A DNA stretch of 64,000 nucleotides from NCBI RefSeq assembly GCF_900220975.1, contig NZ_OBQD01000002.1:62001-126000 (forward strand), read 5' to 3'. Of this stretch, positions 31,943-58,260 are shown piece after piece. Each line of letters opens with the position of its first letter. Position 1 is the stretch's first letter. The translations under genes and the position numbers were made by a program. The notes beneath the pieces were generated by a model. That model ran no database searches. It was not told the origin of the DNA and saw only the letters and a program-made list of their open reading frames with translations. The DNA comes from Rhizobium subbaraonis. GTDB taxonomy: Bacteria; Pseudomonadota; Alphaproteobacteria; Rhizobiales; Rhizobiaceae.

Positions 31943-32683
31943 TCAGTGATGCGCGAGGATTTCGCCGAGAAATGCGCGTGTACGCTCGTGCTTCGGGGCG
32001 CTGAAGAAGGATTCGGGGTCATTTTCCTCGACGATCTGCCCGTCGGCCATGAAGATCACCCGGTCTGCGACCTGACGTGCGAAGCCCATTTCATGCGTCA
32101 CGCAGATCATCGTCATGCCGTCGCGCGCCAGCGAGACCATGGTGTCGAGAACTTCCTTGACCATTTCCGGATCGAGCGCCGAGGTCGGCTCGTCGAACAG
32201 CATCGCCTTCGGCTCCATGCAAAGTGCACGCGCAATGGCGACACGCTGTTGCTGGCCACCGGAAAGCTGGGCGGGGTATTTTTCAGCCTGATCGCCGATC
32301 CTCACCCGCTCGAGATACTTGCGTGCTGTCGCTTCCGCCTCGCTACGGGAAAGCTTGCGAACGCGCATCGGCGCTAGAATGCAGTTTTCCAACACGGTCT
32401 TGTGCGGAAAGAGATTGAACTGCTGGAAGACCATGCCGACTTCGCGACGGACCGCATCGACGGCCTTCTGGCTGTCGTTCAGACGATGCCCGGCCACGAC
32501 AATCTCGCCGCTCTTGATCGTCTCCAGATGGTTGATGCAGCGGATCAGCGTTGACTTGCCGGATCCCGAAGGGCCGCACAGCACGATCTTTTCGCCCTTC
32601 GCAACAGTCAGATTTATATTCTTGAGCGCGTGGAAGGCGCCGTAATATTTTTCGATGTGCTGCATTTCGATCATGGATGCCAC
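31943..32683 (-). CDS. ABC transporter ATPase, polar amino acid family (GlnQ/HisP type)
   Basis: 246 residues with Walker [10 protein letters not shown], signature LSGGQQQR and Walker [14 protein letters not shown]; overall sequence is that of GlnQ-type ATPases. It energises uptake with the two permeases just upstream and the binding protein at 37279. GTG 32683 has GGAGGAG upstream; an ATG three codons later is possible. It ends the catabolic operon, whose other genes (AroQ-like, dehydrogenases) suggest the transported compound is not an ordinary amino acid. Confidence 0.93.
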
Positions 32684-32698
32684 GTGTTTCTCCTCCTT

Positions 32699-33343
32699 TT
32701 ACTTTGCCTGCCCGGCCGCCATGCGGCGTTCGAGCGTCCGCCCCCACAACGACAGCGGCCAGCACATCGCGAAATACATCGCGCCGACCACGCCGAACAC
32801 GAGCAGCGGCCTGTAGATCTGATTGGATACGATTGTGCCAGCGCGGGCGAGCTCGATAAAGCCGACGATCGCGGCCAGCGACGTCCCCTTCAGCAGTTGC
32901 ACCAGAAAACCGACCGTCGCCGGCAGCGAAAGCTTGAAGGCCTGCGGCAGGACGACGTCGAACATGCGGCTGACCCCGTGAAGGCCCAGCGCCTGGGCAG
33001 CCTCGCTCTGCCCCTTTGGAACGGCCTGGATGGCGCCGCGCCAGATTTCGCCCAGAAACGCCGAAGCATGAGCCGTCAGGGCGACGGATACAGCACCCCA
33101 GGCCGGCAGGTCGAAGCCGATCAATGGCAGTCCGAAATAGGCGACGAAAAGCTGCATGAGAAGCGGCGTTCCCTGAAAGAGGCCGATCCAGCAGATCGCC
33201 GGCACACGCAGCCAGGCCGACGGCGAAACACGCATCAGTGCGACGACGAGGCCGAAGAAGATTCCGCCCGCAAATCCGATGGCGGTCAGAAACAGCGTCC
33301 AGGCCAGACCCTGCAGCAGATAGGTGAATTCCTGAATTCCCAT
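32699..33343 (-). CDS. ABC transporter permease, polar amino acid family
   Basis: 214 residues, five or so membrane helices, with the EAA-type cytoplasmic loop EAAQALGLHGVSRMFDVVLPQAF that contacts the ATPase. A typical HisM/GlnP-like permease, membrane half of a heterodimer with the 33354 product. An AGGAGG site sits 5 bases before its ATG. It lies 10 bp from the second permease and 15 bp from the ATPase gene. Confidence 0.93.
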   Translation of the reverse strand: MGIQEFTYLLQGLAWTLFLTAIGFAGGIFFGLVVALMRVSPSAWLRVPAICWIGLFQGTPLLMQLFVAYFGLPLIGFDLPAWGAVSVALTAHASAFLGEIWRGAIQAVPKGQSEAAQALGLHGVSRMFDVVLPQAFKLSLPATVGFLVQLLKGTSLAAIVGFIELARAGTIVSNQIYRPLLVFGVVGAMYFAMCWPLSLWGRTLERRMAAGQAK

Positions 33344-33353
33344 GTCGCCCTCC

Positions 33354-34016
33354 TTACCGTTGCGGATAGCTGAAGGCCCAGCGGCCTATGGCGGCAAGGC
33401 ACCACATGGTGACCAGCGAAATCACCAGATAGATGCCGGTCAGCGTGAAGTAGACCTCGAAGCTGCGGAACGTTTCGGCTTCGATCCGCTGCCCGACCGA
33501 CGTCAACTCATAGGCCGAGATCGAAGTGCAGATGGCCGTCGTCAGCGTCAGCAGGATGAACTGGCTGGACAGCGAAGGATAGATCGCACGCAATGCCGGC
33601 GTCAGCACGATCAGCCGGAAGACCTCGTGCTTGTGCAGGCCGAGCGCCAGTCCGGCTTCCGTCTGGCCTTTCGGAATGCTTTCCACACCGCCGCGGATGA
33701 TCTCGATCGCATAGGCGCCGCCATTGACGCCGAGTGCGATCACAGCTGTCATCGTCGGGTTGAGCCGGATGCCGGCGAGCGGCAATGCGAAGAAGACGAA
33801 GAAGATCTGCACCAGGAACGGCGTATTGCGCACGACTTCCACAAAGGCCGTCACAAGCAGGGACGGCAGCCACATCTGCATTCTGAGGATGACGACACCC
33901 GCGATGCCGATCACCATGGCGATAATCATGCCGGAAAAGGCAAGGAACAAGGTGCCGAGCGTTCCGAAGAGCAGGGACTGCCAGGCGTCGGTCACCACAC
34001 TGAAATCGAGTGTCAT
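33354..34016 (-). CDS. ABC transporter permease, polar amino acid family
   Basis: 220 residues with N-terminal membrane helix (TLGTLFLAFSGMIIAMVIGIAG) and the loop EAGLALGLHKHEVFRLIVLTPAL matching the EAA motif. It is the partner of the 32699 permease. A GGGGGGAG site precedes the ATG. It follows the aldo-keto reductase gene by 28 bp, so transport and enzyme genes share a transcript. Confidence 0.93.
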   Translation of the reverse strand: MTLDFSVVTDAWQSLLFGTLGTLFLAFSGMIIAMVIGIAGVVILRMQMWLPSLLVTAFVEVVRNTPFLVQIFFVFFALPLAGIRLNPTMTAVIALGVNGGAYAIEIIRGGVESIPKGQTEAGLALGLHKHEVFRLIVLTPALRAIYPSLSSQFILLTLTTAICTSISAYELTSVGQRIEAETFRSFEVYFTLTGIYLVISLVTMWCLAAIGRWAFSYPQR

Positions 34017-34044
34017 GGGCTCCCCCCGTTAATGTTGGATATCC

Positions 34045-34875
34045 TCATTGGTCCCAATCCGGTGCCCAGTCGAAGCTGGAATAGCGCTCGCCGCGGGCAA
34101 GCCCGTGGATCGCAACCATGTCCTCGCCCGAGAGTTCGAAATCGAAGATGTCCAGGTTGGCGCGCATGTTTTCAGGACGCGAGGAGCGCGGGATTGCTCC
34201 GACATTGTCCTGCTGCACGAGCCAGCGCAGCGTGACCTGGCCGGCGCTCTTGCCACATTTGCGGCCGATCTCGTTGAGCAGTTCGGACTTGAATACCTTA
34301 CCGCGGGCGATCGGCTGGTATGCGTTCAGGAGCATGTCCGCCCGACGCATGCGCGCCAGGAGCTTTTGCTGCGACAGGAAGGGGTGATATTCCACCTGGT
34401 TGCAGAACAGGTCCGCCTTGTGGACATCCAGCGCCTCGTCGAGCAGGGCGACGGTGAAGTTGCTGACGCCGATCAGGCGCGTACGCCCCTTTTTCTTCTC
34501 CTCGGCGAAAGCGGCAAGCGTCTCGCCGAGTGGAACCTCGCGCGTCGGCCAGTGCACCAACAGGAGATCCACCTGATCAAGGCCCAGCCGCTCGAGACTT
34601 TCCCCGACGCGGCTGGCGACGTTCTCGGGCGAAAGGTCGTTGAACCAGATCTTCGTTGTGACGAACAGCTCGTTGCGCGGCACACCCGAGGCACGGATCG
34701 CCCGGCCGACCTCGGCCTCGTTGCCGTAGCGGATAGCGGTGTCAATCTGCCGGTAGCCGAGTTCGATGGCGGTTCGAATGGCCGCCTCGCCGTCCGGTCC
34801 GGTCAGTTCGAACGTCCCGAGCCCGAGCGCGGGGATGGCTTCGCCGCGGATGATCTTTCTGGCCGGTGAACTCAT
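34045..34875 (-). CDS. aldo/keto reductase
   Basis: 276 residues of the AKR5-like group (2,5-diketogluconate reductase type). The catalytic tetrad is complete: Asp45 and Tyr50 (IDTAIRYGNE), Lys75 (TTKIW), His108 (LLVHWP); the C-terminal IPRSSRPENMRANLDIF is the NADPH-binding end. It reduces or oxidises a carbonyl/alcohol of the transported compound. ATG 34875 overlaps the upstream stop (ATGA). It is part of the unbroken series aroQ-Gfo-TIM barrel-AKR-permeases-ATPase. Confidence 0.9.
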   Translation of the reverse strand: MSSPARKIIRGEAIPALGLGTFELTGPDGEAAIRTAIELGYRQIDTAIRYGNEAEVGRAIRASGVPRNELFVTTKIWFNDLSPENVASRVGESLERLGLDQVDLLLVHWPTREVPLGETLAAFAEEKKKGRTRLIGVSNFTVALLDEALDVHKADLFCNQVEYHPFLSQQKLLARMRRADMLLNAYQPIARGKVFKSELLNEIGRKCGKSAGQVTLRWLVQQDNVGAIPRSSRPENMRANLDIFDFELSGEDMVAIHGLARGERYSSFDWAPDWDQ

Positions 34876-35699
34876 CGCTGGCTCCTTCCATGAACTGTTC
34901 CAAGCAGTGCGAGGCTCGCCTGCCTGGCGCGCCGTGCCCATTCTGCGGGCGAGAGACCGGCTGTCTGCCGGTCATTGGGAACCTCCACGGCGACCGGCAG
35001 TCCACCCGGTAGAGCCCCGAATATGGCCGCCAGATCGATCGCCCCGTCACCGGGAAGGAACCGCTCATGGCGCGCCGCGAAATTCAGCGCCTCGCGGGTA
35101 TCCGGAATTTCCGCCGGCCCGTCGCAGATCTGCGCATAGTGCATCCATTTCTCAGGAATCTCTGCGATCAGAGCCGCAGGCGTCCGCGACCGCGAGACGT
35201 GCAACGCGTCTACGATGACGCCCTGGTTGGGCTGGCCCGCCGCCTTCAGCACGCGTAGCGCTGCGGCCAGGTCGTGCAACTCCGACTGCGGCATGAATTC
35301 GAGATCCATCGCCAGGCCGAACGGTGAAGCGGCTTCGCACAGCGCGGCAAAGGAGGCGGTCAGCCGCCCTTCGTCCGGATCGTCGCCAGCGACGAGTATG
35401 GCGCGGGCTCCGAGCCGCCCGGCGCAGTCGAGGAACGACAGATAATCCGTCGCTCGGAAATCAGGCGCGATGCGGATCATCTCGACATCGAACACGCTCA
35501 TGCCGAGGTCGGTCATCAGCGTGCGAAGGTCGCGAACCCGTGCCGGGTCGTCCATAAGGGGAAACGCGATGCCGCCGGGCGCTGCTGGCAGCATGCGAAG
35601 CCCCACATGGTCGTATCCTGCTTCGGCAGCGACCCGTACCGCCTCTTCCGGGCCGATCCCGAGGCACGTCAGGAAGGACAGGGAAAGCTCTCTCGTCAT
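34872..35699 (-). CDS. TIM-barrel isomerase/dehydratase with 3-dehydroshikimate dehydratase-like metal site
   Basis: 275 residues of the sugar phosphate isomerase/epimerase (AP_endonuc_2) fold. Four metal ligands can be placed: Glu134 (LEFMP), Asp164 (VDALHVSR), Gln190 (AQICDGPAE), Glu239 (VEVPND). This Glu-Asp-Gln-Glu set and its spacing match the QuiC-type protein encoded at 61159 (134, 165, 191, 239) rather than the Glu-Asp-His-Glu of many epimerases. Next to an AroQ-like gene, a 3-dehydroshikimate dehydratase or related dehydration role is plausible but inferred. ATGA overlaps couple it to both neighbours. Confidence 0.82.
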   Translation of the reverse strand: MTRELSLSFLTCLGIGPEEAVRVAAEAGYDHVGLRMLPAAPGGIAFPLMDDPARVRDLRTLMTDLGMSVFDVEMIRIAPDFRATDYLSFLDCAGRLGARAILVAGDDPDEGRLTASFAALCEAASPFGLAMDLEFMPQSELHDLAAALRVLKAAGQPNQGVIVDALHVSRSRTPAALIAEIPEKWMHYAQICDGPAEIPDTREALNFAARHERFLPGDGAIDLAAIFGALPGGLPVAVEVPNDRQTAGLSPAEWARRARQASLALLGTVHGRSQR

Positions 35700-36757
35700 T
35701 CCTCCGTCCCGTCCTCTTCGAGCATTTCCGAAAGCGTGACGGTTCGGTCCTCCCTTGCCGCGCGCGCAACGGCCAGCGTGGCGGCCAGCGTCGCCCTGCC
35801 ATCTCTTGCCGAGATCAGGGGTTGCTCCTCGCGCCGGATCACGGCGAGGAAGTGATTGAGCTGGGCCAGATAGGTCGGCAATCCGGGGGCGCCGCGATAT
35901 TCCCGCACGAGCGGATGCTGCCAGTGCTCGCCCTCGTTGGCGTGCCGCCAGAGGTAGAGGTCCGAGACCGAAAGGGCGGCCTTGCTGCCCGCCAGAAACA
36001 ATGACGGGCCGGGCTGGGCGGGGTGATAGAGGGCCTGGCCCGACGTATACTCCCATGCCCAGGGGCTGACGGCGTTGTCGGAGATCAGAAAGGTGCCCAG
36101 CGCACCGTTGACGAAGCGGATCGAGATGCTGGCGGTATCTTCGACCTCGAAGCCACGCTGCGCGTTCGAGGTGAAGGCACGGATGCTCTCGATCTCGCCG
36201 ACGAGGTAACGCAGCACGTCGATGTCGTGGATGAGATTGATGAGGAGCACGCCCCCACCCGCCTTGCGACGCCACTCCATGTTGAAATAGTCGGTGGGCT
36301 TGTCGAACATCGTCATGCCGTTGACGCCTACGAGCCTGCCCAGGGCACCGCTCTCGATCGCCTGCTTGGCCGCACGAATATCCGGACTGTGGCGACGCTG
36401 ATGCCCCACCAGAACCGGCACGTCATAGCGTTCTGCCGCCGCGCAGATCTGCGCGGCCGCGCCAACGCTCTCGGCGATGGGCTTCTCGATCAGGCAGGCG
36501 ACGCCGCGTTCGATGCAGGCAATCGCAGCCGGCGCATGAAGCTGGTTCGGCAGGGCGACGATCGCCCCGTCAGGTCTGATTTCGTCCAGCATCGCAAGAT
36601 AATCCGTGCGATGCGGCACCGAAAGGCGCTCGGCCAGGGACGCAGCCTCGGGCGACGGATCGCAGACAGCCGCAATTTCAACCTCGGGGTGGGACGCAAG
36701 GAGCTCGGCATGTTCCCGACCGATCAGGCCGGCGCCCAACAATGCAATTCTTGTCAT
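35696..36757 (-). CDS. Gfo/Idh/MocA family NAD(P)-dependent oxidoreductase
   Basis: 353 residues. N-terminal Rossmann domain with GAGLIGREHAELL and acidic AAVCD; the family's EKPIAES lysine motif near residue 92-98; C-terminal domain with GGGVLLINLIHDIDVLRYLVG carrying the catalytic His/Asp. Such enzymes oxidise ring or sugar hydroxyls (inositols, glucose derivatives). In this operon it is the best candidate for the first oxidation step of a cyclitol or quinate-like substrate. It overlaps the aroQ-like gene and the TIM-barrel gene by 4 bp each. Confidence 0.9.
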   Translation of the reverse strand: MTRIALLGAGLIGREHAELLASHPEVEIAAVCDPSPEAASLAERLSVPHRTDYLAMLDEIRPDGAIVALPNQLHAPAAIACIERGVACLIEKPIAESVGAAAQICAAAERYDVPVLVGHQRRHSPDIRAAKQAIESGALGRLVGVNGMTMFDKPTDYFNMEWRRKAGGGVLLINLIHDIDVLRYLVGEIESIRAFTSNAQRGFEVEDTASISIRFVNGALGTFLISDNAVSPWAWEYTSGQALYHPAQPGPSLFLAGSKAALSVSDLYLWRHANEGEHWQHPLVREYRGAPGLPTYLAQLNHFLAVIRREEQPLISARDGRATLAATLAVARAAREDRTVTLSEMLEEDGTEE

Positions 36758-37188
36758 TTCGTCATCTCCGCCATCGCCCTGAGGGCAATCCTGTAGCCGT
36801 AGGCGCCAAAGCCAGCCATGACGGCCGTCGCGGTCTTCGAGACGAGCGACTTGTGATAGATTTCCTCCCGCTGGTGCACGTTCGATATGTGCAGTTCGAT
36901 CTTCGGGCCATTGAACATCTTCAACGCGTCCAGAATGGCGATCGACGTGAACGTGTAGCCTGCCGGATTGATGATAATGCCGGCCGCTTGCGTCCGCGCC
37001 GCGTGAATGGATTCGATGATCTCGCCTTCGAAATTCGACTGCCTGAAGTCGATGGCGACGTTCAGTTCCTTCGCATCGCCCTCGCACCAGCCGCGGATTT
37101 CGTCGAGCGTCGTGCTGCCGTAGATTTCAGGCTCGCGCTGTCCCAGCAGATTGAGATTGGGGCCGTTCAGGATGAATATTGTTCGCAA
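36754..37188 (-). CDS. AroQ-like type II 3-dehydroquinate dehydratase, divergent active-site loop
   Basis: 144 residues, normal length. The N-terminal motif FILNGPNLNLLGQREPEIYG contains the family's Arg and Tyr, and HISNVH carries the conserved His-Ile-Ser. The loop that normally reads NPxAYTHTS reads NPAGYTFTS here, with Phe80 replacing the usual histidine. It may be a catabolic or substrate-shifted paralogue, not the biosynthetic aroQ. TTG 37188 is the likely start, with GGAGG 7 bases upstream; ATG 37209 lies before that site. It is the first enzyme gene after the binding-protein gene. Confidence 0.85.
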   Translation of the reverse strand: MRTIFILNGPNLNLLGQREPEIYGSTTLDEIRGWCEGDAKELNVAIDFRQSNFEGEIIESIHAARTQAAGIIINPAGYTFTSIAILDALKMFNGPKIELHISNVHQREEIYHKSLVSKTATAVMAGFGAYGYRIALRAMAEMTK

Positions 37189-37220
37189 TGCCTTTCCTCC
37201 CAAGGGCAATTGTGGAGCGT

Positions 37221-37278: not shown

Positions 37279-38106
37279 TTACTGCACCGTGAAGGGCACG
37301 CCTTCGAGTTTCTCGGGGAACTGCGGCATAGACGCGTCGAGATACTTCTTATTGATGGCTTCCAGCCGGCCATCGGCCTTGATCTTGTCGATGAAGCTGT
37401 TCAGCCATTCGTTCATTTCCTTGTCGCCAAGCTTCGAGCAGATACCCATCCACTGTTCGTTGAACACCAGCTTCTGCTCGAAGTCGTTGCCCGGGGCGGC
37501 CTTGTCGAGGTTGATCTTGTAGGTGGTGTTGCCACCGATTGCATCGACCTGCCCCGAGACAAGCGCCTGGATCGTCGAACTGTCGTCGTCGAAGCGGCGG
37601 ATATTGGGAAGGTCGCCGAGAAGCGTGGTGATCGCCTTGTCCTGAGCGGCGCCGCGCGGCACGCCGATCTGGAGATTGCGTGCGTCCTCGATCGTCTCGA
37701 TCTTGTTCTTCTGGCTCGACAGAAGAATGATCTTCAGGCCGGCGTAGGGCTTGGAGAACTGCACCACCTTGGCGCGATCGGGATACATGCCCATCACGGC
37801 CATCTGAAGGTCGACCTTCCCGGTCACCAGATTCGGAATGCGCGCGGCGACCGCGTTCGGCACGAACTCGACCTTGACCCCGAGCTCCTCGCCAATCAGG
37901 CGCCCGACATCGACGTCATAGCCGATGTTCTGGCCGCTGGCATCGATGGATCCCCAAGGCGCCTGCTCGCCCATGACGCCGATGCGCACGACGCCGGCTT
38001 CCTTGATGCTTTCCAGGGCCTGAGCATTCGCCGTAGACGAGATGCCTGCGAGACCCAAACCCGCCATCAAGGCGAAAGCTGCTGCACGAACTGAAAACAT
38101 ACCCAT
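37279..38106 (-). CDS. ABC transporter substrate-binding protein, polar amino acid family
   Basis: 275 residues. A signal peptide (VRAAAFALMAGLGLAGISSTANA) precedes a type II periplasmic binding fold of family 3 (GVVRIGVMGEQAPWG, IGYDVDVGRLIGEEL, GIPNLVTGK-like RIPNLVTGKVDLQM). It captures the substrate for the permease/ATPase genes downstream. ATG 38106 lies just after GGAGGAG; ATG 38100 is an alternative. It is the first gene of the operon, and the TetR-type operator is 107 bp upstream. Confidence 0.92.
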   Translation of the reverse strand: MGMFSVRAAAFALMAGLGLAGISSTANAQALESIKEAGVVRIGVMGEQAPWGSIDASGQNIGYDVDVGRLIGEELGVKVEFVPNAVAARIPNLVTGKVDLQMAVMGMYPDRAKVVQFSKPYAGLKIILLSSQKNKIETIEDARNLQIGVPRGAAQDKAITTLLGDLPNIRRFDDDSSTIQALVSGQVDAIGGNTTYKINLDKAAPGNDFEQKLVFNEQWMGICSKLGDKEMNEWLNSFIDKIKADGRLEAINKKYLDASMPQFPEKLEGVPFTVQ

Positions 38107-38212
38107 AACTCCTCCGCTGGGTTGCTGACCTAATTCACTTCCTCCGACCAAGCCTCTGAAAGGACGGCAACTCCACCATCGCCAGCCCATTCCAAACAAC
38201 TCGATTACAATT

Positions 38213-38228
38213 AACCAACCAGTTGGTT
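38213..38228. promoter_or_regulatory. palindromic TetR-type operator
   Basis: Perfect inverted repeat AACCAAC-CA-GTTGGTT in the 218-bp region between the binding-protein gene (minus) and tetR (plus). The position fits repression of both directions by the adjacent TetR protein, with release by the pathway substrate. Binding is inferred from the symmetry and location. Confidence 0.75.
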
Positions 38229-38324
38229 GATGTCAATTAATGCTCTATAAGTCGTCGACAGATGGTTCATGCCGCCCTGATTGGCGTTATGAACAACAGT
38301 GGACAGAACCCGGCGACGTGGAGA

Positions 38325-39026
38325 ATGGCGACGATGGCGAGCGACGACAGTGAAAACGGCACGGGCACACCGGGCAGCGGCGAGCGCGCGCCGAAGCGTC
38401 GCCGGAGCGCGCTGCTCGATTCGGCCATCGTCGAGTTTTCCACCTATGGTATAGGAGGCGCGCGGGTCGACAGGATCGCCGAGCGCGCCAACACCAACAA
38501 GGCCATGCTCTACCATTACTTCGGGAACAAGGACGACCTCTACCTCGCCGCCCTGCAGGATATCTATGCCGGCATCCGCGGAGCGGAGAACGAACTGGAG
38601 CTCGACCTCTCGGCCCCCGAAGCCGCCATCCGCACGCTCGTCGCCTTCACCTTCCGCTACTACGTCGACAATCCCGCCTTCGTGCGGATGATCAACACCG
38701 AAAACCTCCATCGCGCCGTCCATCTTCGGGCAGCCGGAGACATGGCCGCGCTCAACCGGTCGATCCTCGACAGGATCAAGGCGATTCTGGACCGGGGCGT
38801 CGCGGAAGGCATCTTCCGCGAGGGCATCGATCCGCTCGACCTCTACATCTCGATTTCTGCGCTCGGCTTCACCTACATCTCCAACCAGCACACGCTGGCG
38901 GTCCTGTTCGGCCGCGACCTCACGACCGACGAAGCCATAGAAAAGCGCCTCGAATCGATAACCGATATGATTCTGCGGTTCGTCCGGTCGGATCGACATC
39001 AGGCGGCCTCCGACAGCGCGCGATAG
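38325..39026 (+). CDS. TetR family transcriptional regulator
   Basis: 233 residues from ATG 38325. The helix-turn-helix lies near the N-terminus (AIVEFSTYGIGGARVDRIAERANTNKAMLYHYFGNKDDLY, shown in the family as the TetR_N pattern), followed by a helical ligand domain of the TetR_C type. It diverges from the ABC operon and probably represses it through the palindrome at 38213. The start is uncertain: ATG 38262, 38289, 38325 and 38334 are all in frame, with a TGGAGA just before 38325. The 3' end overlaps the convergent epimerase gene by 28 bp. Confidence 0.9.
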   Translation: MATMASDDSENGTGTPGSGERAPKRRRSALLDSAIVEFSTYGIGGARVDRIAERANTNKAMLYHYFGNKDDLYLAALQDIYAGIRGAENELELDLSAPEAAIRTLVAFTFRYYVDNPAFVRMINTENLHRAVHLRAAGDMAALNRSILDRIKAILDRGVAEGIFREGIDPLDLYISISALGFTYISNQHTLAVLFGRDLTTDEAIEKRLESITDMILRFVRSDRHQAASDSAR

Positions 39027-39904: not shown

Positions 39905-40599
39905 GGCTTCACCCGCATGTCGTCGTCGGTCAGCGTATAGGCCGTTTCATAAATCGTCGTGACCGGCGCGACCAGCAGCCCGGTCGTCGCGGCCAGACCC
40001 TCGATCGCCGGGACCGCAGCCTCCAGACCGGCCCGCGAAGCCCCCTCGGCGAGAATGACGACATCGAACTCCCGCTCGGACATGGTGCTGCGAAGTTCCG
40101 TCTCGCGAGTGCGCACCCCGGAGACTTCGCTGCGCGCCAGCCCCACGTGAACACAGCAGATGCCGGGAAGAGCCAGTATCGCATCGGCCAGAGCCTGCGC
40201 CTCCCCCTCTATCGCCGCGCGGGCACCCGCATCGGTCAAGTCGAAACGGATCGTCGCCATGCTGCCGCCGTTCCCTCGGCCGGCCTCAGCGATGCGCTCG
40301 CAGGCGACGCGCAGAAAATTCTGGAAGCTCGGCGCCACGGCGGCCGTCCATGGCGTGGGATTGTTCAGCCGCTGGAGATAGTCCGCCGACCGGAACACCT
40401 CGACCGTATCGGCCGCATAGATGGTGCCGTAGACGTGGCGGACGGCCTGGGGGTCGTGCAGCCGCTTTCCCGTCCGGAAGCCGGGTATCGAAAGCCGCTC
40501 GGGCATATGCTCACGCGTGTGCCACTCGATGTATTCGCCATGCTCGCCTTCGGCAATATCGTGCCAGATCGCCAGAAAGGCAGACCCCTTCAATGCCAT
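39901..40599 (-). CDS. tandem dimeric alpha/beta-barrel (EthD-like) protein
   Basis: 232 residues. The first half (FLAIWHDIAEGEHGEYIEWHTREHMPERL) has the His-rich pattern of EthD/DUF4286-like dimeric barrels that bind small hydrophobic or keto compounds; the second half looks like a diverged second barrel. Such proteins often accompany dehydrogenases in degradation clusters, sometimes as lactone isomerases. ATG 40599 lies 8 bases after GGAGG. Function unknown. Confidence 0.65.
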   Translation of the reverse strand: MALKGSAFLAIWHDIAEGEHGEYIEWHTREHMPERLSIPGFRTGKRLHDPQAVRHVYGTIYAADTVEVFRSADYLQRLNNPTPWTAAVAPSFQNFLRVACERIAEAGRGNGGSMATIRFDLTDAGARAAIEGEAQALADAILALPGICCVHVGLARSEVSGVRTRETELRSTMSEREFDVVILAEGASRAGLEAAVPAIEGLAATTGLLVAPVTTIYETAYTLTDDDMRVKP

Positions 40600-40678
40600 T
40601 TCATGCTCCTCCCAGTCCTCCAACCGGCCGGCTTGATCGACCAACTTGACAATCAGGCCGCTTCCGCTTCATGTAGAC

Positions 40679-40753: not shown

Positions 40754-41494
40754 ATGCAGCAGAGCGAGACGTCACGGGTTGCGATCATCACCGGAGGCGC
40801 GGGCGGCCTTGGGTATCCCATCGCCGAGCGGCTGGCAGCCCAGGGGCACAAGGTCGCGATCTGGGACATCAACGGCGAGCGTGCGCAGGCGGCCGCAGCA
40901 AAGCTTCCCAATGCGAAGGGCTACGAGGTCGACGTGACCGACCCCGACGCGGTGCACGAGGCAACCGCACGGGTCGTCAGCGATCTCGGGCCGCTCGGCA
41001 TTCTGGTCACCTGCGCCGGCCATAACGGGCCGCTCAGGGAATTCGCCGAGTATCCCCTCGACGGCTGGCGCTTCGTCATGTCGCTCAACCTCGACGCGGT
41101 TTTCCACTGCTGCCAGGCAGCCGTCCGGGAAATGCTGAAGACCGGATACGGACGCATCGTCAACATGGCCTCGATAGCGGGCAAGGAAGGCAACCCGAAC
41201 GCGGTGGCCTATTCGGCTTCGAAGGCGGGCGTGATCGGCCTCACCAAATCGATCGGCAGAGAGCTGGCGACAACCTCTATTCGCGTTAACTGCGTGACGC
41301 CGGCTGCGATCGAGACGGAGATGCTCGAGCAGCTGACCCCCGAATTCAAGGCTTACGTCACATCCAAGATCCCCGTCGGGCGTCTCGGCCGCGCGGAAGA
41401 AGTGGCCGCACTCGTGTGCTGGCTCACGTCCGAAGAATGCTCGTTCTCCACCGGCGCTGTTTTCGACGTTTCCGGCGGCCGCGCGACCTATTGA
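40754..41494 (+). CDS. short-chain dehydrogenase/reductase, FabG-like
   Basis: 246 residues, classical SDR. NAD motif TGGAGGLG, structural NAG-like CAGHNG, catalytic Ser (MASIAG) and YSASK. The acidic WDIN after strand two favours NAD over NADP, as expected for a catabolic dehydrogenase. GGGAGGAGG precedes the ATG. It leads a plus-strand run with the TIM-barrel gene 9 bp downstream and the GntR gene beyond. Confidence 0.9.
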   Translation: MQQSETSRVAIITGGAGGLGYPIAERLAAQGHKVAIWDINGERAQAAAAKLPNAKGYEVDVTDPDAVHEATARVVSDLGPLGILVTCAGHNGPLREFAEYPLDGWRFVMSLNLDAVFHCCQAAVREMLKTGYGRIVNMASIAGKEGNPNAVAYSASKAGVIGLTKSIGRELATTSIRVNCVTPAAIETEMLEQLTPEFKAYVTSKIPVGRLGRAEEVAALVCWLTSEECSFSTGAVFDVSGGRATY

Positions 41495-41503: not shown

Positions 41504-42328
41504 ATGCACGGACAACACCTGCTTTCCCTCGCCTTCCTGACCGTCCAGGGATGCCCGCCGATCGAACACGTAAAATGCGCAGCCGCCGCAGGTTATGACG
41601 CCGCGGGGCTGCGACTCATCGCCCCGCACGGCCTGTCGCTCGCCCACCCGATCGTCGGCGATCGGCCGTTGATCCGCGAGATCCGCACCGTCGCAGCCGA
41701 TCTCGGCATCTCCTTCCTCGACGGCGAAGTTTTCACCTTGCTGCCGGACACGGACGTGGAGGCATGGCTGCCCGTCATCGAGACCGCCGGCGAATTCGGC
41801 ATGCCGATCATGCAGATCACCTGCGAGGACCCGGAGCTATCGCGCGCGGCGGACAATCTGGCGCGCATCGCCGATGCTGCGGCCGATCAAGGGATGAAGA
41901 TGGCCATCGAATTCATGCGCTGGCGCAACGCGGCAACCATCGAGGATGCGGAAGCACTGGCCTTGGCTTCAGGTCGCGGCAATGTCGGCATCCTGCTCGA
42001 TACTCTGCATCTGTCACGCTCCGGTGGCAATCCAGCCGCCGTCGCCGCCCTGCCGCAGGACCATATCCTCTATCTCCAGCTTTGCGACGCACCGGCCGAG
42101 CAGCCCGCCGACAATGCGGCCTGTATCGCGGAAGCGCGCAGTGCGCGAATGCTGCCGGGCGACGGCGGATTGTGGCTTGAGGAATTGATGGCGCTGCTTC
42201 CGGCAAGCATTGCCATCAGCGTGGAAACGCCGCACAAAGGCGATACGGAACTCGACTTTCTTGAGAGGGCACGCAGGGGCATGGCTGCCACGCGCGCGTT
42301 TCTCGACGGACTGCCGGGCCGATCATGA
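41504..42328 (+). CDS. TIM-barrel isomerase/dehydratase, paralogue of the 34872 product
   Basis: 274 residues of AP_endonuc_2 fold. Metal ligands Glu136 (AIEFMRW), Asp166 (LLDTLHLSRSG), Gln192 (LQLCDAPAEQ) and Glu241 (SVETPH) repeat the Glu-Asp-Gln-Glu pattern of the 34872 and 61159 proteins. Shared stretches with 34872 (FLT.QG/FLTCLG near the start, CDxPAE, MLPGDGG/FLPGDGA) show the two genes arose by duplication. Probably a dehydratase or isomerase in the same pathway. Confidence 0.82.
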   Translation: MHGQHLLSLAFLTVQGCPPIEHVKCAAAAGYDAAGLRLIAPHGLSLAHPIVGDRPLIREIRTVAADLGISFLDGEVFTLLPDTDVEAWLPVIETAGEFGMPIMQITCEDPELSRAADNLARIADAAADQGMKMAIEFMRWRNAATIEDAEALALASGRGNVGILLDTLHLSRSGGNPAAVAALPQDHILYLQLCDAPAEQPADNAACIAEARSARMLPGDGGLWLEELMALLPASIAISVETPHKGDTELDFLERARRGMAATRAFLDGLPGRS

Positions 42329-42466
42329 GCATCGGCCGCCAGTTGAACGACCGCGAGGAACGGACGTCCTCCGCGGCCCCAACGCCGGCAGGGTGGCCCG
42401 TTTCGAAATGATGGTGTGGACGAATTGGATGAGTGTGCACGCGAGAGGTCGGGGAGGCATCGCGAA

Positions 42467-43189
42467 GTGGAACGTAGAACACGTGGCTCATTGACCGCCC
42501 GCGTCACGGAGCGCCTGCGCAGCGCCATTCTCGACGGAGAACTGGAGCTTGGTGACGCGCTTTCCGAGGACAAGCTGGCAACCATACTCGGCGTGAGCCG
42601 CAGCCCGGTGCGCGAAGCGTTCACGGCGCTCGAGCAGGAGGGCTTGATCGACATCCGGCCCCAGCGGGGCAGCTTCGTGTTCCTCCCAAGCAGGGAAGAT
42701 ACGGAAAACCTTTGCGAGTTCCGCCGGATGATCGAGCTTGAGGCAATGCGGCTGGCCATGCAGAAAAAGCGTAGCGAAACGCTTGCGGCGATGACGGCCG
42801 CGGCGGAAGAGATGCGGGAGGCCATCCTCGCCGAGGACAATCTTCGCAGTTCCAGCGCCGATACGCGCTTCCATAGCGTTGCGATCGAGAATTGCGGAAA
42901 CCCTTACCTTATCAACGCCTACCGGCTCGTGGCCGCAAAAGTGGGCGCATTGAGATCGCACCGGTCGACGTTGCCTACGCGCCGGCAGGCGAGCGAGGAG
43001 CACTTCACGATCCTGTCGATGCTCGAGGCCAACGACATGAACGGCGCCATGGAAGCACTCGGAACCCACATTCTCATGATGGCCAAGCGCTACAGCCTGG
43101 AACCGATCGCGGTGCCTGGCGCGACCGGACGATCGGGCAAGGCGACGCGCAACGCCTCGTTCGACCATATCGGCCCGCTCCCCGACTGA
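42467..43189 (+). CDS. GntR family regulator, FCD type
   Basis: 240 residues. Winged helix N-terminus with SLTARVTERLRSAILDGELE and the recognition element LGVSRSPVREAFTALEQEGLI; the FCD ligand domain follows with DTRFHSVAIENCGNPYL and a late HFTIL histidine. FCD regulators bind small organic acids. GTG 42467 is preferred, since GGGGAGG stands 9 bases upstream; longer forms to 42416 lack a site. It is downstream of the SDR and TIM-barrel genes it may control. Confidence 0.88.
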   Translation: MERRTRGSLTARVTERLRSAILDGELELGDALSEDKLATILGVSRSPVREAFTALEQEGLIDIRPQRGSFVFLPSREDTENLCEFRRMIELEAMRLAMQKKRSETLAAMTAAAEEMREAILAEDNLRSSSADTRFHSVAIENCGNPYLINAYRLVAAKVGALRSHRSTLPTRRQASEEHFTILSMLEANDMNGAMEALGTHILMMAKRYSLEPIAVPGATGRSGKATRNASFDHIGPLPD

Positions 43190-43198: not shown

Positions 43199-43214
43199 CT
43201 AGAGCATGCTCTAG
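43199..43214. terminator. perfect 16-bp palindrome between convergent genes
   Basis: CTAGAGCATGCTCTAG lies between the GntR gene and the convergent M24 gene and supplies the TAG stop codon of the latter (43213-43211). It resembles the short TCTAGAGCATG-type intergenic palindromes frequent in rhizobial genomes. It may act as a bidirectional transcript end; no T-run is present. Confidence 0.5.
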
Positions 43215-44389
43215 CGCCCCAGCGAATTCCAGCCGCGCGCGGCATCGCCGAAGCCGATGCACCCGTCATCGGTCACGGCAACGGTGTCCTCCAGCTTGAT
43301 GAAACCGAGATGCGGATGCTGCAGTGTCGTCTCGATGGACAGGACCATGCCGGCACGCAGCGGCCGATTGCGGTGGGCCGCCGGGTAGGGAATCGGGCCG
43401 TCATCGAGAAGGCGCGGTGCCTCGTGGGAAATCAGCCCCATGCCGTGCGCGACGAAACTCAGCTTTCCCTCGCATGGGCGCGACATGCGCCCGGCAACGG
43501 CCTCGAAGATCTCCGCGCCCATCGCACCCTGCCGGATCGGCCGGCGCGCAAGCTGTTGTATCTCCTCGATCGCGGCAAGCGCGTCTTCGAGCTCCGGCGA
43601 GGGTCGCCCCAATATGCCCATGCGGCAGAGATCGCCGATATAGCCACGATAATTTCCGCCGGAATCGAGCGACAGGATATCGCCCTCCCGGATCCGCTGG
43701 TCGGAGGGCGCGCGGTTCAGATCTTTGCCCGCCGTGATCAGGCAATATTCGAAGTTGAGTCCGCGCCGCACCTCCTCCTGCCGCAGGATTTCGACGACAT
43801 CGCGCTTGGCAAGTCCGGGCTCGATACGCGCAAACGTGGCCAGCATCGAATCGACGACCCCCTCGGAGGCAATCCTGAGACACTCCAGTTCCGCAGGCGA
43901 CTTGATCGCCCGCAATTCCTCCAGCACTTCGACGCAATCCGTAAGCCGCACGGCGGGCAAGCCGTCCTGCAGAGCCTTCATCGCATCCGCCGGGAGGAAC
44001 CCTGCCTCGACGCCGATGGACGATAGTCCGATCCCGGCGGAGGTGACGTATTCCATCGCATAACGCATCGCATCGACCGATCCGCGCGCGCGCAGATCGA
44101 GATGGCTGGGCCAGAGACTTCCGAGATCCCGTTCATAGGCCTCATTGGGATTGCCGACATAGCCGGTGAACTCAGGATGGCCGCGCCGATAGATAAAGAT
44201 GGGCAGGTAGCGGCTTAGACCCGTTGCATCCATGTAATCGAACATGAAGAAGCGGTAGCCGCCCAACAGGTGCTGCACATTGTGCTTGGATGTCACAAGG
44301 AGCAGATCGAGGCCCCGCTCCTCCATCAACCGATCGAGCAGGCCGGTATCAAACGGCGCGACACCGGAAGCACCATGTTCGGCTTTCAT
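43211..44389 (-). CDS. M24 family metallopeptidase-like hydrolase (Xaa-Pro aminopeptidase/creatinase fold)
   Basis: 392 residues: an N-terminal creatinase-like domain and a C-terminal pita-bread domain with the metal ligands in order, Asp (SLDSGG), Asp (IGDLCRMG), His (HGMGLISHE), Glu (SIETTL) and Glu (LEDTVAVT). M24 members include Xaa-Pro peptidases, creatinases and DMSP lyases (DddP), so peptide cleavage should not be assumed. ATG 44389 has GGAGGAGGA upstream. It lies alone on the minus strand between plus-strand catabolic genes. Confidence 0.83.
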   Translation of the reverse strand: MKAEHGASGVAPFDTGLLDRLMEERGLDLLLVTSKHNVQHLLGGYRFFMFDYMDATGLSRYLPIFIYRRGHPEFTGYVGNPNEAYERDLGSLWPSHLDLRARGSVDAMRYAMEYVTSAGIGLSSIGVEAGFLPADAMKALQDGLPAVRLTDCVEVLEELRAIKSPAELECLRIASEGVVDSMLATFARIEPGLAKRDVVEILRQEEVRRGLNFEYCLITAGKDLNRAPSDQRIREGDILSLDSGGNYRGYIGDLCRMGILGRPSPELEDALAAIEEIQQLARRPIRQGAMGAEIFEAVAGRMSRPCEGKLSFVAHGMGLISHEAPRLLDDGPIPYPAAHRNRPLRAGMVLSIETTLQHPHLGFIKLEDTVAVTDDGCIGFGDAARGWNSLGR

Positions 44390-44594
44390 TCCAAATCCTC
44401 CTCCTGCGCCATGCAAGCAGTCTCGGCACACTCACCACACGGTCACCGGCCGATTGGCCGCGCCCCTCCCGCCCGGATGCCGCAAGCGATTGTTGACATA
44501 CAGTACCTCAGCTTGCAAGTTGACGCTTCGTCGGAGGCAAGGGCGTGCGGCTGGAATGGGCGGCGACGCCCATGAAAAAGGGGAGGAGAAAGGA

Positions 44595-45593
44595 ATGCAG
44601 GCGCTCGTCTATCTCGGGAAAGAAAACATGGAGTACCGGGAGCTCGACGACCCTCGCCCTGGTCCGGGTGAAGCGGTGGTGCGCGTGGCAGCCTGCGGCA
44701 TCTGCGGTTCCGACATGCATGGTTATCACGGCTACGACCCGCGGCGCATACCGCCGATGATTATGGGGCACGAATTTGCCGGCGTGGTGGAAACCGGGCC
44801 GATGACGGGCAAGCGCGTCACGGTAAATCCGTTGCTGACCTGCGGCCGCTGCAACGCCTGTATCTCTGGTGCGCCGCAGCTTTGCGAGGAACAGCGCAAT
44901 ATAGGACTGCCTCCGCATGCGGGGGCTTTCGCCGACAAGGTGGTGGTCCGCGAAGCCAATCTGGTGCCGATCCCCGATGAGATGGATTTCGTTACCGCCG
45001 CACTCAGCGAACCGGTCGCGGTCGCCTACCACGCCGTCCGGATCGCAACTCGCCTGTCAGACCGCCCTCTTTCTGCTCGGCGCATCGCGGTTCTGGGTGG
45101 CGGCGCCATCGGGTTGGCCACGGCCCTTGTGGCCTTGTCCCAGGGAGCGCGGCAAGTTTTTCTGGGCGAGACGAACGCGAACAGACGAGCGACCGCACGC
45201 TCTGCAAATGGCGATATCGTCGCCTACGAGCCCGGCGGCGCGGACGAACCTGCCATCGCCAGCGTGGACCTTGTCTTTGACGCCGTAGGCGCGCAGGCCA
45301 CGCGGGAGGCCGCCTTTCGCATGACGCGGCGCGGCGGCACCATCGTACATCTCGGCCTTTTGCCGGGTGGCGACGGCGTCGACGTTCGCCGCCTGACGCT
45401 CGCAGAAATCGCCTTCGTCGGATCCTACTGTTATTCCACGATCGATTTCCGCGAGACCGTGGCCCTGCTCGCATCCGGAGGTCTGGGCCCGTTGAACTGG
45501 GTCGAGACAAGGAAAATGTCCGATGGCGCAGCAGCGTTCGCCGCTCTCGATCGGGGGCTCGCAGATGCGGCAAAGCTCGTCCTGGTCAATTGA
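44595..45593 (+). CDS. zinc-dependent medium-chain alcohol/polyol dehydrogenase
   Basis: 332 residues. Catalytic zinc ligands Cys37 (CGICGSD), His59 and Glu60 (GHE); the structural zinc loop has four cysteines in TCGRCNACISGAPQLC; NAD binding is shown by VLGGGAIGLA. Family members oxidise sorbitol, galactitol, threonine or cyclic alcohols. An AGGA site immediately precedes ATG 44595, with GGGAGG upstream. The GntR gene follows 81 bp on. It adds another alcohol-oxidising step to the catabolic island. Confidence 0.9.
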   Translation: MQALVYLGKENMEYRELDDPRPGPGEAVVRVAACGICGSDMHGYHGYDPRRIPPMIMGHEFAGVVETGPMTGKRVTVNPLLTCGRCNACISGAPQLCEEQRNIGLPPHAGAFADKVVVREANLVPIPDEMDFVTAALSEPVAVAYHAVRIATRLSDRPLSARRIAVLGGGAIGLATALVALSQGARQVFLGETNANRRATARSANGDIVAYEPGGADEPAIASVDLVFDAVGAQATREAAFRMTRRGGTIVHLGLLPGGDGVDVRRLTLAEIAFVGSYCYSTIDFRETVALLASGGLGPLNWVETRKMSDGAAAFAALDRGLADAAKLVLVN

Positions 45594-45674: not shown

Positions 45675-46409
45675 ATGACGCGTCCCATGAACGAACATGA
45701 GAGCCTGAAAGCCGACAGGAACATCAATCCGATGAAAATAAGTCCCATCAGGCCGCAGTCCCTTGCGGAAATTGTCGCCGATCGCTTGAAGGCCGCAATT
45801 CTTCGCCGGGAACTGGCGCTGGGCGAGGCGCTTTCGGAGGAAAAGATCGCGGCCGCCATGGAAGTCAGCCGCACGCCCGTGCGCGAAGCATTGACCATGC
45901 TGCAATTGCAGGGGCTCATCACCATCCTGCCGCGCCGAGGCAGCTTTGTCTTCAAGCCGGATCAGGCGACCTTGCATTCGCTGGTCGAGTATCGCCTCCA
46001 GCTCGAACTGCTGGCTGCGGACTGGGCGACGCAGCGGGCGCCGGAAGCCCTGCATTCGGCGCTTCGACAGGCGCTGGCGCTCATGGAAAAGGCGCGCGAC
46101 GAAGACGATTCATTTGCCTATGCCACGGCGGACACGCAGTTCCATGAGGCATTCATCGCCCATTGCGGCAATCCGCTGGTCATTGAAGCCTACGGGATCG
46201 CCGCCGGCCGGCTGGCGGCGATCCGATCGCATCTTGCCGAACAACTGGGCCTGCACCGGCAAAAGACCCTGCAAGAACACCACCAGATCGCCCGCGCCGT
46301 TGAGGCAAGAGATGCCGATCAGCTGCGCCTTCTCCTGAAGCAGCATATAGAGGCGATGGAGCCCAACTACGCCAATGCGTTGGCCCTGTTGGACATGCGA
46401 TCCGGCTGA
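45675..46409 (+). CDS. GntR family regulator, FCD type
   Basis: 244 residues. Winged helix with SLAEIVADRLKAAILRREL and VSRTPVREALTMLQLQGLI, then an FCD effector domain (DTQFHEAFIAHCGNPLV, HHQIARAVEARD). It is clearly related to the 42467 regulator, suggesting duplicated regulation of two halves of the pathway. ATG 45675 is the earliest start; a later ATG (45690) is possible. A strong hairpin follows immediately. Confidence 0.88.
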   Translation: MTRPMNEHESLKADRNINPMKISPIRPQSLAEIVADRLKAAILRRELALGEALSEEKIAAAMEVSRTPVREALTMLQLQGLITILPRRGSFVFKPDQATLHSLVEYRLQLELLAADWATQRAPEALHSALRQALALMEKARDEDDSFAYATADTQFHEAFIAHCGNPLVIEAYGIAAGRLAAIRSHLAEQLGLHRQKTLQEHHQIARAVEARDADQLRLLLKQHIEAMEPNYANALALLDMRSG

Positions 46410-46439
46410 CGCCCGGCCGGCACCGGCCGGCCGGGCGTC
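46408..46439 (+). terminator. strong GC-rich hairpin after the GntR gene
   Basis: Perfect 13-bp stem (46408-46420 with 46427-46439) and a 6-base loop; the left arm begins inside the TGA stop codon of the GntR gene. It is the most stable stem noticed in the window. The lack of a T-run means factor-independent termination is not certain, but it should mark the transcript end. Confidence 0.65.
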
Positions 46440-46543
46440 GCTCAGCGACTGCGACAAGCGAAATATCTCGACTTGACGTTTCTATGCCACCCTGATGCAC
46501 ATATGCAGCCAGCGCACTGCAATCGAACACAAGGAACGAAAAC

Positions 46544-47599
46544 ATGGAATACCGCCTCCTCGGTCGTTCGGGCCTGAAGGTCTCGACCATCACGATGGGA
46601 ACCATGACCTTTGGTGGCAAGGGTTGGGCAAAGACGGTTGGCGACCTCGGCGTCTCCGACGCCCGGCGACTGGTCGACATGTGCCTCGATGCAGGCGTCA
46701 ATTTCATCGACACGGCGGATGTCTACTCCGAAGGCGCCTGCGAGGAAGTGTTGGGGGAAATCATCGGCGGTCCGCGCCGCAATGGCCTGCTCATCGCCAC
46801 CAAGGCGCGCTTTGCGATGTCGCCGGATCCCAACGATGTCGGTTCCTCGCGCTACCATCTCATCCGTGCCTGCGAGGCAAGCCTGCGGCGATTGAAGACC
46901 GACGTCATCGACCTCTACCAGTTGCACGAATGGGACGGCGTCACCCCGCTTGAAGAAACGATGGAGGCACTGGATCAACTCGTCCGCCAGGGCAAGGTGC
47001 GTTATGTCGGCTGCTCCAACTTCTCCGGCTGGCACATCATGAAGGCGCTGGGGGTGAGCGACAGAGACCGGCGATCGCGCTTCGTAAGCCAGCAGATCCA
47101 TTACACGCTCGAAGCGCGCGAAGCAGAATACGAGCTCCTTCCGATCTCCGTCGATCAGGGCCTCGGCGTCCTTGTCTGGAGCCCGATCGCCGGCGGCCTG
47201 CTCTCGGGCAAGCACCGCCGAAACCAGTCCGCGCCGGAAGGGACACGGCAGTTCGCCGGGTGGACGGAGCCGCCGATCCGGGACGAGGACCGCCTGTGGA
47301 ACATCGTCGACACGCTGGTGGCAATCGGCAACGAGCGCAACGTCTCCGCGGCCCGCGTCGCACTATCTTGGCTGTTGGGCCGGCCGGGTGTCACCTCGGT
47401 CATCATCGGCGGGCGCACGCCCGAGCAGTTCAGCGACAATCTGGCAGCAGCCGAGCTGACCCTGTCGGATGAGGAGCGTGGTCGGCTTGATGCCGTCAGC
47501 GCGCCGCCCGTCCTGTACCCCTACTGGCACCAGCTCAATACCGCCAGCGACCGGTTGGGCGAGGCGGATCGGGTCCTCCTCGGTCCACACCTCAAGTAG
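46544..47599 (+). CDS. aldo/keto reductase
   Basis: 351 residues of the larger AKR group (YajO/AKR11-13 like). Catalytic residues: Asp56 and Tyr61 (FIDTADVYSEG), Lys in IATKARF, His in YQLHEWD; the NADP-binding end is TSVIIGGRTPEQF. It probably handles aldehyde or ketone intermediates of the catabolic island. A TTGACG near 46473 may be its -35. The gene ends in an 8-bp overlap with the convergent FUSC-like gene. Confidence 0.88.
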   Translation: MEYRLLGRSGLKVSTITMGTMTFGGKGWAKTVGDLGVSDARRLVDMCLDAGVNFIDTADVYSEGACEEVLGEIIGGPRRNGLLIATKARFAMSPDPNDVGSSRYHLIRACEASLRRLKTDVIDLYQLHEWDGVTPLEETMEALDQLVRQGKVRYVGCSNFSGWHIMKALGVSDRDRRSRFVSQQIHYTLEAREAEYELLPISVDQGLGVLVWSPIAGGLLSGKHRRNQSAPEGTRQFAGWTEPPIRDEDRLWNIVDTLVAIGNERNVSAARVALSWLLGRPGVTSVIIGGRTPEQFSDNLAAAELTLSDEERGRLDAVSAPPVLYPYWHQLNTASDRLGEADRVLLGPHLK

Positions 47600-58257: not shown

Positions 58258-58260
58258 GCC

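Follow-up and report, generated by a model that had tools for sequence, protein, structure and literature searches.

A TetR-linked gene island of Rhizobium subbaraonis, probably for a quinate-like ring acid, resembles an offshoot of the rhizobial quinate-type operon

Introduction

Plants supply root bacteria with carbon in the form of quinate and related ring acids. In Rhizobium subbaraonis, a group of genes on contig C59 (NZ_OBQD01000002.1) joins a polar-amino-acid-type importer to enzymes reminiscent of quinate breakdown, which raises the question of which compound it serves and whether its route is a new one. The locus, hereafter the island, occupies positions 31943 to 47599 of the window analysed here, a stretch of 64 000 nucleotides (contig positions 62001–126000) from a 6.6-Mb genome; the nearest genome found by search, G005, belongs to the same genus. 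An earlier note had seen in the island what looked like an undescribed route for a cyclic polyol or a quinate/shikimate-like compound, in which a cyclic polyhydroxy acid is imported, oxidized, dehydrated twice and passed to a pca block. By comparison with sister operons, the binding protein, the context of the Gfo/Idh/MocA dehydrogenase (Gfo) and the nearby pca genes, the substrate class and the direction of flow hold. The novelty shrinks: the route is not a free-standing one, as AroQ, Gfo and the transporter appear to have paralogues in a quinate-type operon that is common in rhizobia. The island thus reads as a paralogous offshoot of that operon, with extra enzymes that this descent leaves unexplained. 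We give an even chance to the fuller proposal that the island is catabolic and controlled by TetR, that it derives from the duplicated operon, and that it handles a cyclic polyhydroxy carboxylate of the quinate/shikimate type, probably not quinate itself but a close relative such as an epimer, a reduced form or a conjugate.

Results

Pfam and NCBIfam scans recovered every gene that had been named in the island at its position, and the operon running from the solute-binding protein (SBP) to the ATPase (38112 to 31943, minus strand) is indeed unbroken. It comprises the SBP (SBP_bac_3 family, 37279..38112; PF00497, 107.9 bits), the type II 3-dehydroquinate dehydratase AroQ (36754..37209), Gfo (35696..36766, assigned by Pfam), the TIM barrel TIM1 (34872..35705; PF01261, 61.5 bits), the DkgB-like aldo-keto reductase AKR1 (34045..34875; PF00248, 177.3 bits; NF008377, 251 bits with a cut-off of 327), two ABC permeases of the HEQRo type (33354..34016 and 32699..33343; both above the TIGR01726 cut-off) and a GlnQ-like ABC ATPase (31943..32683; NF007027, 323.1 bits with a cut-off of 379). 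Successive gaps are 69, −13, −10, −4, 28, 10 and 15 bases; that is, AroQ, Gfo, TIM1 and AKR1 overlap by 4–13 bases, and the remaining gaps are 10–69 bases.

The block from the SBP to the regulator GntR1 (42416..43189, plus strand) is kept in four other genomes, which makes five islands: R. rhizolycopersici (L004, L093; 92–100% identity), G522 (L137), G483 (L138) and G537 (L140; 60–91%). This conservation is more than chance. Among 346 genomes of the family, 82 of which match at 1e-47, AroQ proteins of at least 85% identity occur in G000, G005, G522, G483 and G537 only, and the next best reaches 71%.

The operon core recurs in rhizobial operons that, judged by gene content, would degrade quinate. 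On pRLG202 of R. leguminosarum bv. trifolii WSM2304 the order is QuiC1-SBP-AroQ-permease-permease-ATPase-Gfo-AroE-pca, with pca adjoining, and pRA_T24_2 of R. anhuiense carries a similar operon with QuiC1, AroE and Gfo. Further SBP-AroQ-permease-permease-ATPase operons lie in G593 (with QuiC1, AroE, pca and Gfo), G417 (QuiC1, AroE and pca), G246 (QuiC1, AroE and Gfo) and G497 (QuiC1 and AroE). The operon of G035 has AroE, Gfo and pca and no SBP in the stretch, and G023 and G538 have SBP-AroQ-permease genes without QuiC1, AroE, pca or Gfo partners. Island and quinate-type operon share the SBP, an AroQ with Phe and Tyr at two pocket positions (see below), two permeases, the ATPase and Gfo. In the rhizobial operon, QuiC1 goes with them. 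The island operon has no AroE and carries TIM1, AKR1, a TetR regulator, an epimerase-like protein (EPIM), the protein family DUFx, a short-chain dehydrogenase (SDR) and a second TIM barrel, TIM2; its AroQ, Gfo and SBP also form clades or carry motifs of their own. Two relatives keep both kinds of operon, namely G483 (island L138 and L139) and G537 (island L140 and L141), L139 and L141 being SBP-AroQ-ABC operons beside pca.

Phylogeny is consistent with this kinship. In an AroQ tree of 62 rows, the island proteins form a clade of six rows (window counted twice; support 97/82) whose sister is the AroQs of the ABC operons (11 rows, 100/99). The two are joined at 98/97 (17 rows), and the AroQs of TRAP-transporter clusters form a separate clade (31 rows, 98/97). 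Likewise, in a Gfo tree of 53 rows, from which matches below 36% identity were left out, the island Gfos (six rows, window twice; 100/99) are sister at 100/100 to those of R. anhuiense (L175) and G593 (L142), eight rows together, so that their nearest outside relatives sit in QuiC1-AroQ-Gfo-AroE operons. The Gfos of WSM2304, G035 and G246 are placed elsewhere, that of WSM2304 being more distant. Given these sister clades, AroQ and Gfo seem to stem from the duplication of an operon core, to which the transporter, judged by identity, would also belong.

AroQ scores above its family cut-offs (TIGR01088, 177.9 against 169.85 bits; PF01220, 184.6 against 23.3) and keeps Arg19, Tyr24, Asn75, Asp88, His101, Ser103 and Arg108 (Mtb numbering), which serve in catalysis or in holding the carboxylate. 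According to PMC6011038, His81 and Arg112 contact the C5 hydroxyl of dehydroquinate, Asp88′ contacts the C4 hydroxyl, and Asn75, Ser103 and the main chain bind the carboxylate. The window AroQ has Phe81 and Tyr112 in place of the C5-hydroxyl pair, which the housekeeping copy on contig C46 retains; this double exchange marks a catabolic subfamily of AroQ. Among 57 distinct sequences, the window included, 44 are Phe/Tyr, one is Phe/His and 12 are His/Arg, with neither Phe/Arg nor His/Tyr, and the other nine positions inspected are invariant; outside this set, the AroQs of Sagittula and S. meliloti have Phe and Tyr as well. Besides its first AroQ, the quinate-type operon of R. anhuiense encodes another (L175, 10094–10549), in which Gln replaces His81 and the Arg is kept. 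On plasmids, 106 of 363 records with an AroQ match (E 1e-30) were Klebsiella; those among the matches listed share one common type II dehydroquinase, 47.6% identical to the window AroQ.

A substrate without a C5 hydroxyl was an attractive explanation, as exactly both contacts to that group change. We dropped it because this AroQ type co-occurs with QuiC1, which eliminates the 5-hydroxyl. In 39 AroQ stretches, chosen by AroQ score and not at random (34 Phe/Tyr, five His/Arg), 20 of the 34 wide neighbourhoods around a Phe/Tyr enzyme contain QuiC1. At least one of QuiC1, AroE and pca is present in 24 of the 34, as against one of the five His/Arg stretches (L107); the ten without them are L095, L100, L103, L137, L138, L140, L146, L148, L149 and L156 (a 30% LysR match in L148 was left uncounted). 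Beside QuiC1, the Phe/Tyr enzymes therefore probably still act on dehydroquinate. The double swap, of which no description was found in the literature searched, is a mechanistic puzzle and no proof of a different substrate.

The importer, which had been assigned to the polar-amino-acid type, keeps that assignment by comparison, with a binding protein that has lost the amino-acid ammonium site. We aligned AncQR and AncCDT with 17 SBP rows from five islands and eleven quinate-type operons (the window protein and 15 further distinct ones, L022 being the window again). The position at which amino-acid SBPs bind the α-ammonium group is Asp in AncQR and AncCDT and Asn in 17 of 17 rows; the Thr-x-Thr ahead of the conserved Arg is changed, and the Arg itself is kept. 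The motifs separate the two kinds of operon: AVMGMYPDR and GGNTTYK in the islands, ATMAMLPD/ER and GGNIFY in ten of eleven quinate-type operons, that of L107 being slightly different. This pattern argues for a carboxylate without an amino group and for a ligand that differs between the two operon kinds.

The first oxidation had been ascribed to Gfo to the exclusion of the YdiB and PQQ-dependent dehydrogenases. That exclusion cannot be claimed. Besides Gfo, quinate oxidation could fall to four shikimate-dehydrogenase-type proteins encoded in the genome or to two PQQ membrane dehydrogenases, which score 1172 and 1092 bits (cut-off 832.65) as members of the glucose/quinate/shikimate family. By its position in QuiC1/AroQ operons, Gfo is a candidate quinate/shikimate dehydrogenase, and no functional assignment of the quinate-type operon Gfo was found in the literature searched.

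The pca block was correctly placed as regards pcaQ (56431..57372, minus strand; TIGR02424, 431.8 bits with a cut-off of 303.8) and pcaDCHG (57460–60039, plus strand; pcaD above the TIGR02427 cut-off, pcaC, pcaH and pcaG by identity to loci so annotated). Two plus-strand neighbours had been overlooked: pcaB (60047–61105, by position and a 352-aa frame) and a QuiC1-type, two-domain dehydroshikimate dehydratase (DSD) gene at 61144–63054 (NF042435, 625.6 bits over residues 7–626 of 635, the strict cut-off of 1200 not being reached). Its product has all ten DSD active-site letters of QuiC1, in columns checked against alignments with 5hmq. By sequence, the window thus offers what a quinate/shikimate pathway calls for, a dehydroshikimate dehydratase and pcaDCHGB within reach, and TIM1 need not be the sole enzyme of the former kind.

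The same qualification touches the proposed pair of dehydrations. For the first, AroQ has the family score and the catalytic residues of the predicted enzyme; for the second step TIM1 is a plausible dehydroshikimate-type dehydratase, with the QuiC1-type gene by pca also available. At the active-site positions listed for QuiC1/QsuB in PMC7442255, 31 QuiC1 rows read RLELDHQSRE, and TIM1 and 13 further rows read RLEMDHQARE, as do 14 of 16 rows resembling TIM3 (a barrel of the second cluster described below). Seven of the ten QuiC1 residues are firmly matched in TIM1 and an eighth, Arg64, depends on the alignment; against the QuiC-type NCBIfam equivalog the single-domain TIM1 scores 33.8 bits (cut-off 1200). 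TIM2 (41504..42328, plus strand; PF01261, 71 bits) is the second paralogue that had been proposed; it is present, but with TQEMDHQARE departs from QuiC1 at more pocket positions than TIM1, and its clade in the tree consists of the five ABC-type islands only. The Lmo2234 fragment reads TNEMDHQSR-. We set aside Lmo2234, which may be the QuiC2 of Listeria, as proof of QuiC2 likeness.

The second half of the island is made of short units rather than one operon: TetR (plus), EPIM-DUFx (minus), SDR-TIM2-GntR1 (plus), M24 (minus), ADH-GntR2 (plus) and AKR2 (plus). EPIM (38999..39904; PF01370, 120.5 bits) is an extended SDR of the epimerase/dehydratase family with relatives in the FAD-type clusters described below; unlike in the other block carriers, it was not found in G522 L137. 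DUFx (39901..40605) has no Pfam or NCBIfam match; its 14-member alignment has 24 invariant columns (Trp14, Asp16, Trp28, Glu32 and His33 among them), the best solved chain gives a non-credible E of 0.62, and matches at 1e-15 occur in 33 of 337 class genomes, its own included. The SDR dehydrogenase lies at 40754..41494 (PF13561, 200.7 bits) and GntR1, also present in L093, L137, L138 and L140, follows TIM2. Every one of the five islands has AKR1, TIM1, DUFx, SDR and TIM2.

Conservation becomes patchier beyond GntR1. The Zn-dependent alcohol dehydrogenase ADH (44589..45593; PF08240, 88.2 bits) is present in R. rhizolycopersici and L140 and was not found in L137 or L138. M24, a hydrolase of the creatinase/prolidase fold (43211..44389; PF00557, 108.1 bits), and the regulator GntR2 (45675..46409) recur, among the other block carriers, in R. 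rhizolycopersici only, and AKR2 (46544..47599), not found in the L137, L138 and L140 stretches, is a weak candidate for membership. We rejected M24 alone as an island marker: a Microvirga ossetica relative (62%) showed no other island genes in its surroundings, and one in Phyllobacterium (51%) sits in a different operon. At E 1e-110, M24 is matched in two of 245 class genomes, its own included. Elsewhere in the window, another PF01261 TIM barrel (52952–54061, domain 53297–54010; 85 bits) lies upstream of open reading frames at 54198 and 55498, the latter SMP-30-like by eye.

The gap between the SBP gene and the divergent TetR gene (38262..39026, plus strand; PF17938, 147.1 bits; PF00440, 49.2 bits) contains a 20-bp palindrome, TCAACCAACTGGTTGGTTAA (38211..38230, minus strand), the presumed TetR operator. 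It is found with 0–2 mismatches to the pattern in five of five islands and in none of the other loci scanned, quinate-type operons among them; the scan covered one strand with up to four mismatches allowed and thereby, since the site is nearly palindromic, the opposite strand with about two. In the window the palindrome occurs once, and in 100 shuffles never (0 expected). TTGACA, a promoter-box consensus, stands directly upstream in five of five islands, so the palindrome would lie between promoter boxes. We infer that TetR binds there.

A second cluster lies 350 kb away on the same contig (451–476 kb; L082 11406–17314 and L083 8108–16114) and comprises AroE2, TIM3, FAD1, FAD2, NIPSNAP, IclR, an HAAT transporter, Gfo2, an EPIM and AroE3. 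The nearest named NCBIfam function of FAD1 is ChcC2, 4-oxocyclohex-2-ene-1-carboxylate 5-dehydrogenase (503.7 bits, cut-off 900), and that of FAD2 is 3-ketosteroid-delta-1-dehydrogenase (442.8, cut-off 789), followed by ChcC2 (394.8). FAD1 adjoins the island in G483 and G537, and in G522 lies within ∼30 kb of pcaQDCHG, QuiC1, AroE3 and HAAT genes. The cluster may be an aromatization pathway for cyclohexanecarboxylates. AroE2 lacks the first Ser of the SxS substrate motif; similar FAD/AroE/Gfo/TIM clusters occur in Celeribacter, R. sullae and others.

Discussion

A ring acid as the substrate class is well supported. The narrower proposal, a close relative of quinate and not quinate itself, is drawn from the duplication (two relatives with both operons), the changed SBP motifs and the co-distribution with the second cluster. 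Taken with gene content, conserved order, residue patterns, the sister relation to quinate-type operons and the conserved palindrome, these suggest the following scheme. When the inducer is absent, TetR would sit on the palindrome between the promoter-like boxes; when it is present, the SBP/ABC system would import the carboxylate. Gfo would oxidize a ring hydroxyl to a ketone with NAD, and AroQ would remove the hydroxyl at C1, in the β position to the new ketone. As a metal-dependent QuiC-like enzyme, TIM1 would eliminate the next hydroxyl to give protocatechuate for the pca enzymes, with QuiC1 near pca as a second exit. AKR1, SDR, EPIM and ADH could adjust the hydroxyl and ketone positions of non-standard isomers.

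Several observations weigh against this scheme. Some concern the step that TIM1 would take: when 13 other PF01261 proteins of the genome were aligned as controls, TIM1 matched seven of ten positions, the controls L179 seven, L182 six and the other eleven 3–5. With the controls added, Arg64 of TIM1 falls in a gap, and the HMMER alignment puts its Arg in a different column. The best solved relative of TIM1, by a profile of 26 TIM1-like proteins, is Lmo2234 (99.5 bits), with IolI (59.8) and QuiC1 (59.2) level behind, and the TIM barrels of TRAP-type islands are neither orthologues nor, in the tree, sisters of TIM1. As it does no better than the best of the controls, we dropped TIM1 as a certain dehydroshikimate dehydratase. 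As to Gfo, 29 relatives across the order were compared in stretches with 1.5-kb flanks; five with an AroQ in the stretch count in favour of the scheme, whereas 24 have none within 1.5 kb. One relative, in Agrobacterium fabrum, belongs to a sugar operon, which shows that members of this Gfo subfamily also occur outside quinate-type clusters. The co-distribution counted in favour, FAD1 at 73% identity or more in seven of 346 family genomes (five of five island genomes, plus G394 and G465, two of 341 others), ignores genome kinship. It is the duplication and the motif differences that speak for a compound other than quinate; none of AKR1, EPIM, SDR, ADH, M24 and DUFx has a fixed place among the steps; and, with the strain's TRAP-type AroQ fragmentary, the island AroQ may simply serve quinate.

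This last point leads to the best-surviving alternative, which we consider possible though somewhat doubtful: the island is the lineage's working quinate/shikimate operon, in which Gfo, AroE or both act as dehydrogenase, AroQ and QuiC1/TIM1 carry out the dehydrations, and the extra enzymes deal with minor side products. The paralogy of AroQ, Gfo and, by similarity, the SBP, permeases and ATPase to quinate-type genes fits it, as does the company of Phe/Tyr AroQs with QuiC1 in 20 of 34 neighbourhoods. Versions with a TRAP transporter, AroE and QuiC1 are common, and S. meliloti MABNR56 carries a TetR-AroE-DctPQM-AroQ cluster on a plasmid of 1.6 Mb; in that species, as cited in PMC3597991, quinate and protocatechuate use needs a large segment of a pSym symbiotic megaplasmid. 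In the strain studied here, DctM is followed by no more than a fragment of the TRAP-type AroQ (contig C85; L166, 807–890) and the TRAP quinate-type cluster looks inactivated; the TRAP-type AroQ of G005 has one in-frame stop. However, G483 and G537 keep both operons, the SBP motifs differ between them, QuiC1 stands outside the island operon, and the five genes kept in every island (AKR1, TIM1, DUFx, SDR and TIM2) exceed what a three-step pathway needs.

Catabolism of inositol, another neutral cyclitol or a sugar by IolG-, IolE- and IolM-like enzymes with a recruited AroQ is very unlikely. Matches to these families do occur for Gfo, TIM2 and ADH, but all far under the cut-offs (149.7 against 355, 29.2 against 290 and 141.2 against 450 bits); AroQ keeps the carboxylate-binding Asn75 and Ser103, the SBP its conserved Arg, pca and QuiC1 share the window, and family scans named no island protein IolB, IolC or IolD. 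An amino-acid, opine or ectoine-like pathway, which the transporter subunits (highest scores against amino-acid and ectoine transporters) and M24 (54.2 bits against ectoine hydrolase DoeA, cut-off 613) might evoke, is hardly credible given the loss of the ammonium-binding Asp in all SBP rows and the fact that scans of the island proteins named neither an aminotransferase nor a deaminase.

Returning to a close relative of quinate as the substrate, a broader version, which we hold tentatively, would place the second cluster (FAD1, FAD2, AroE-like proteins, Gfo2, TIM3, NIPSNAP and HAAT) together with the island in one undescribed alphaproteobacterial pathway. It would aromatize a non-standard cyclohexane polyol carboxylate (a reduced or epimeric quinate or shikimate, or a conjugate opened by M24) by way of an oxidation, a flavin-dependent desaturation and two eliminations, and would employ an AroQ with a rebuilt C5-hydroxyl site. 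The comparison makes three matters testable: a Gfo/Idh/MocA enzyme as the quinate-type dehydrogenase of R. leguminosarum-style operons, the mechanism of a dehydroquinase in which neither of the usual C5-hydroxyl contacts is left, and the compound degraded by the extra, repeatedly assembled gene set.

Comparison with known systems

In the better-known pathways, dehydroquinate dehydratase is likewise present and an AroE-type dehydrogenase takes the place of Gfo. Both qsuABCD of Corynebacterium glutamicum and quiC1 of Pseudomonas putida employ a dehydroshikimate dehydratase that leads to protocatechuate in quinate/shikimate use (PMC7442255). Their transporter differs from that of the island, which also carries extra genes.

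Those extra genes recur in the TRAP-type islands of Sagittula sp. MA-2, P11 and genome G471. As in the window, AroQ lies near EPIM, SDR, AKR1 (68–70%), ADH (61–64%) and M24 (61–63%), together with DUFx (56–57%), GntR2 (65–68%), a TIM barrel and an FAD enzyme. This gene set ties the window ADH, M24, GntR2 and DUFx to the same theme. The differences are TRAP transporters, a TIM barrel not orthologous to TIM1 and the lack of a Gfo among the genes found; the AroQs of MA-2 and G471 fall in two separate places within the TRAP clade.

The FAD/AroE/Gfo/TIM clusters are a third comparison. Like the island, R. sullae pWSM1592_2 and the second cluster on C59 hold Gfo, TIM and AroE-type relatives and EPIM, and an operon on Rhodococcus rhodochrous pGD02.2.1 combines MFS, AroE, an FAD protein, AKR (37%), Gfo (25–30%), FAD1 (50%) and TIM1 (45%) relatives. 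Unlike the island, these clusters have FAD proteins resembling ChcC2 or ketosteroid dehydrogenase and HAAT or MFS transporters, and no AroQ was found in their stretches.

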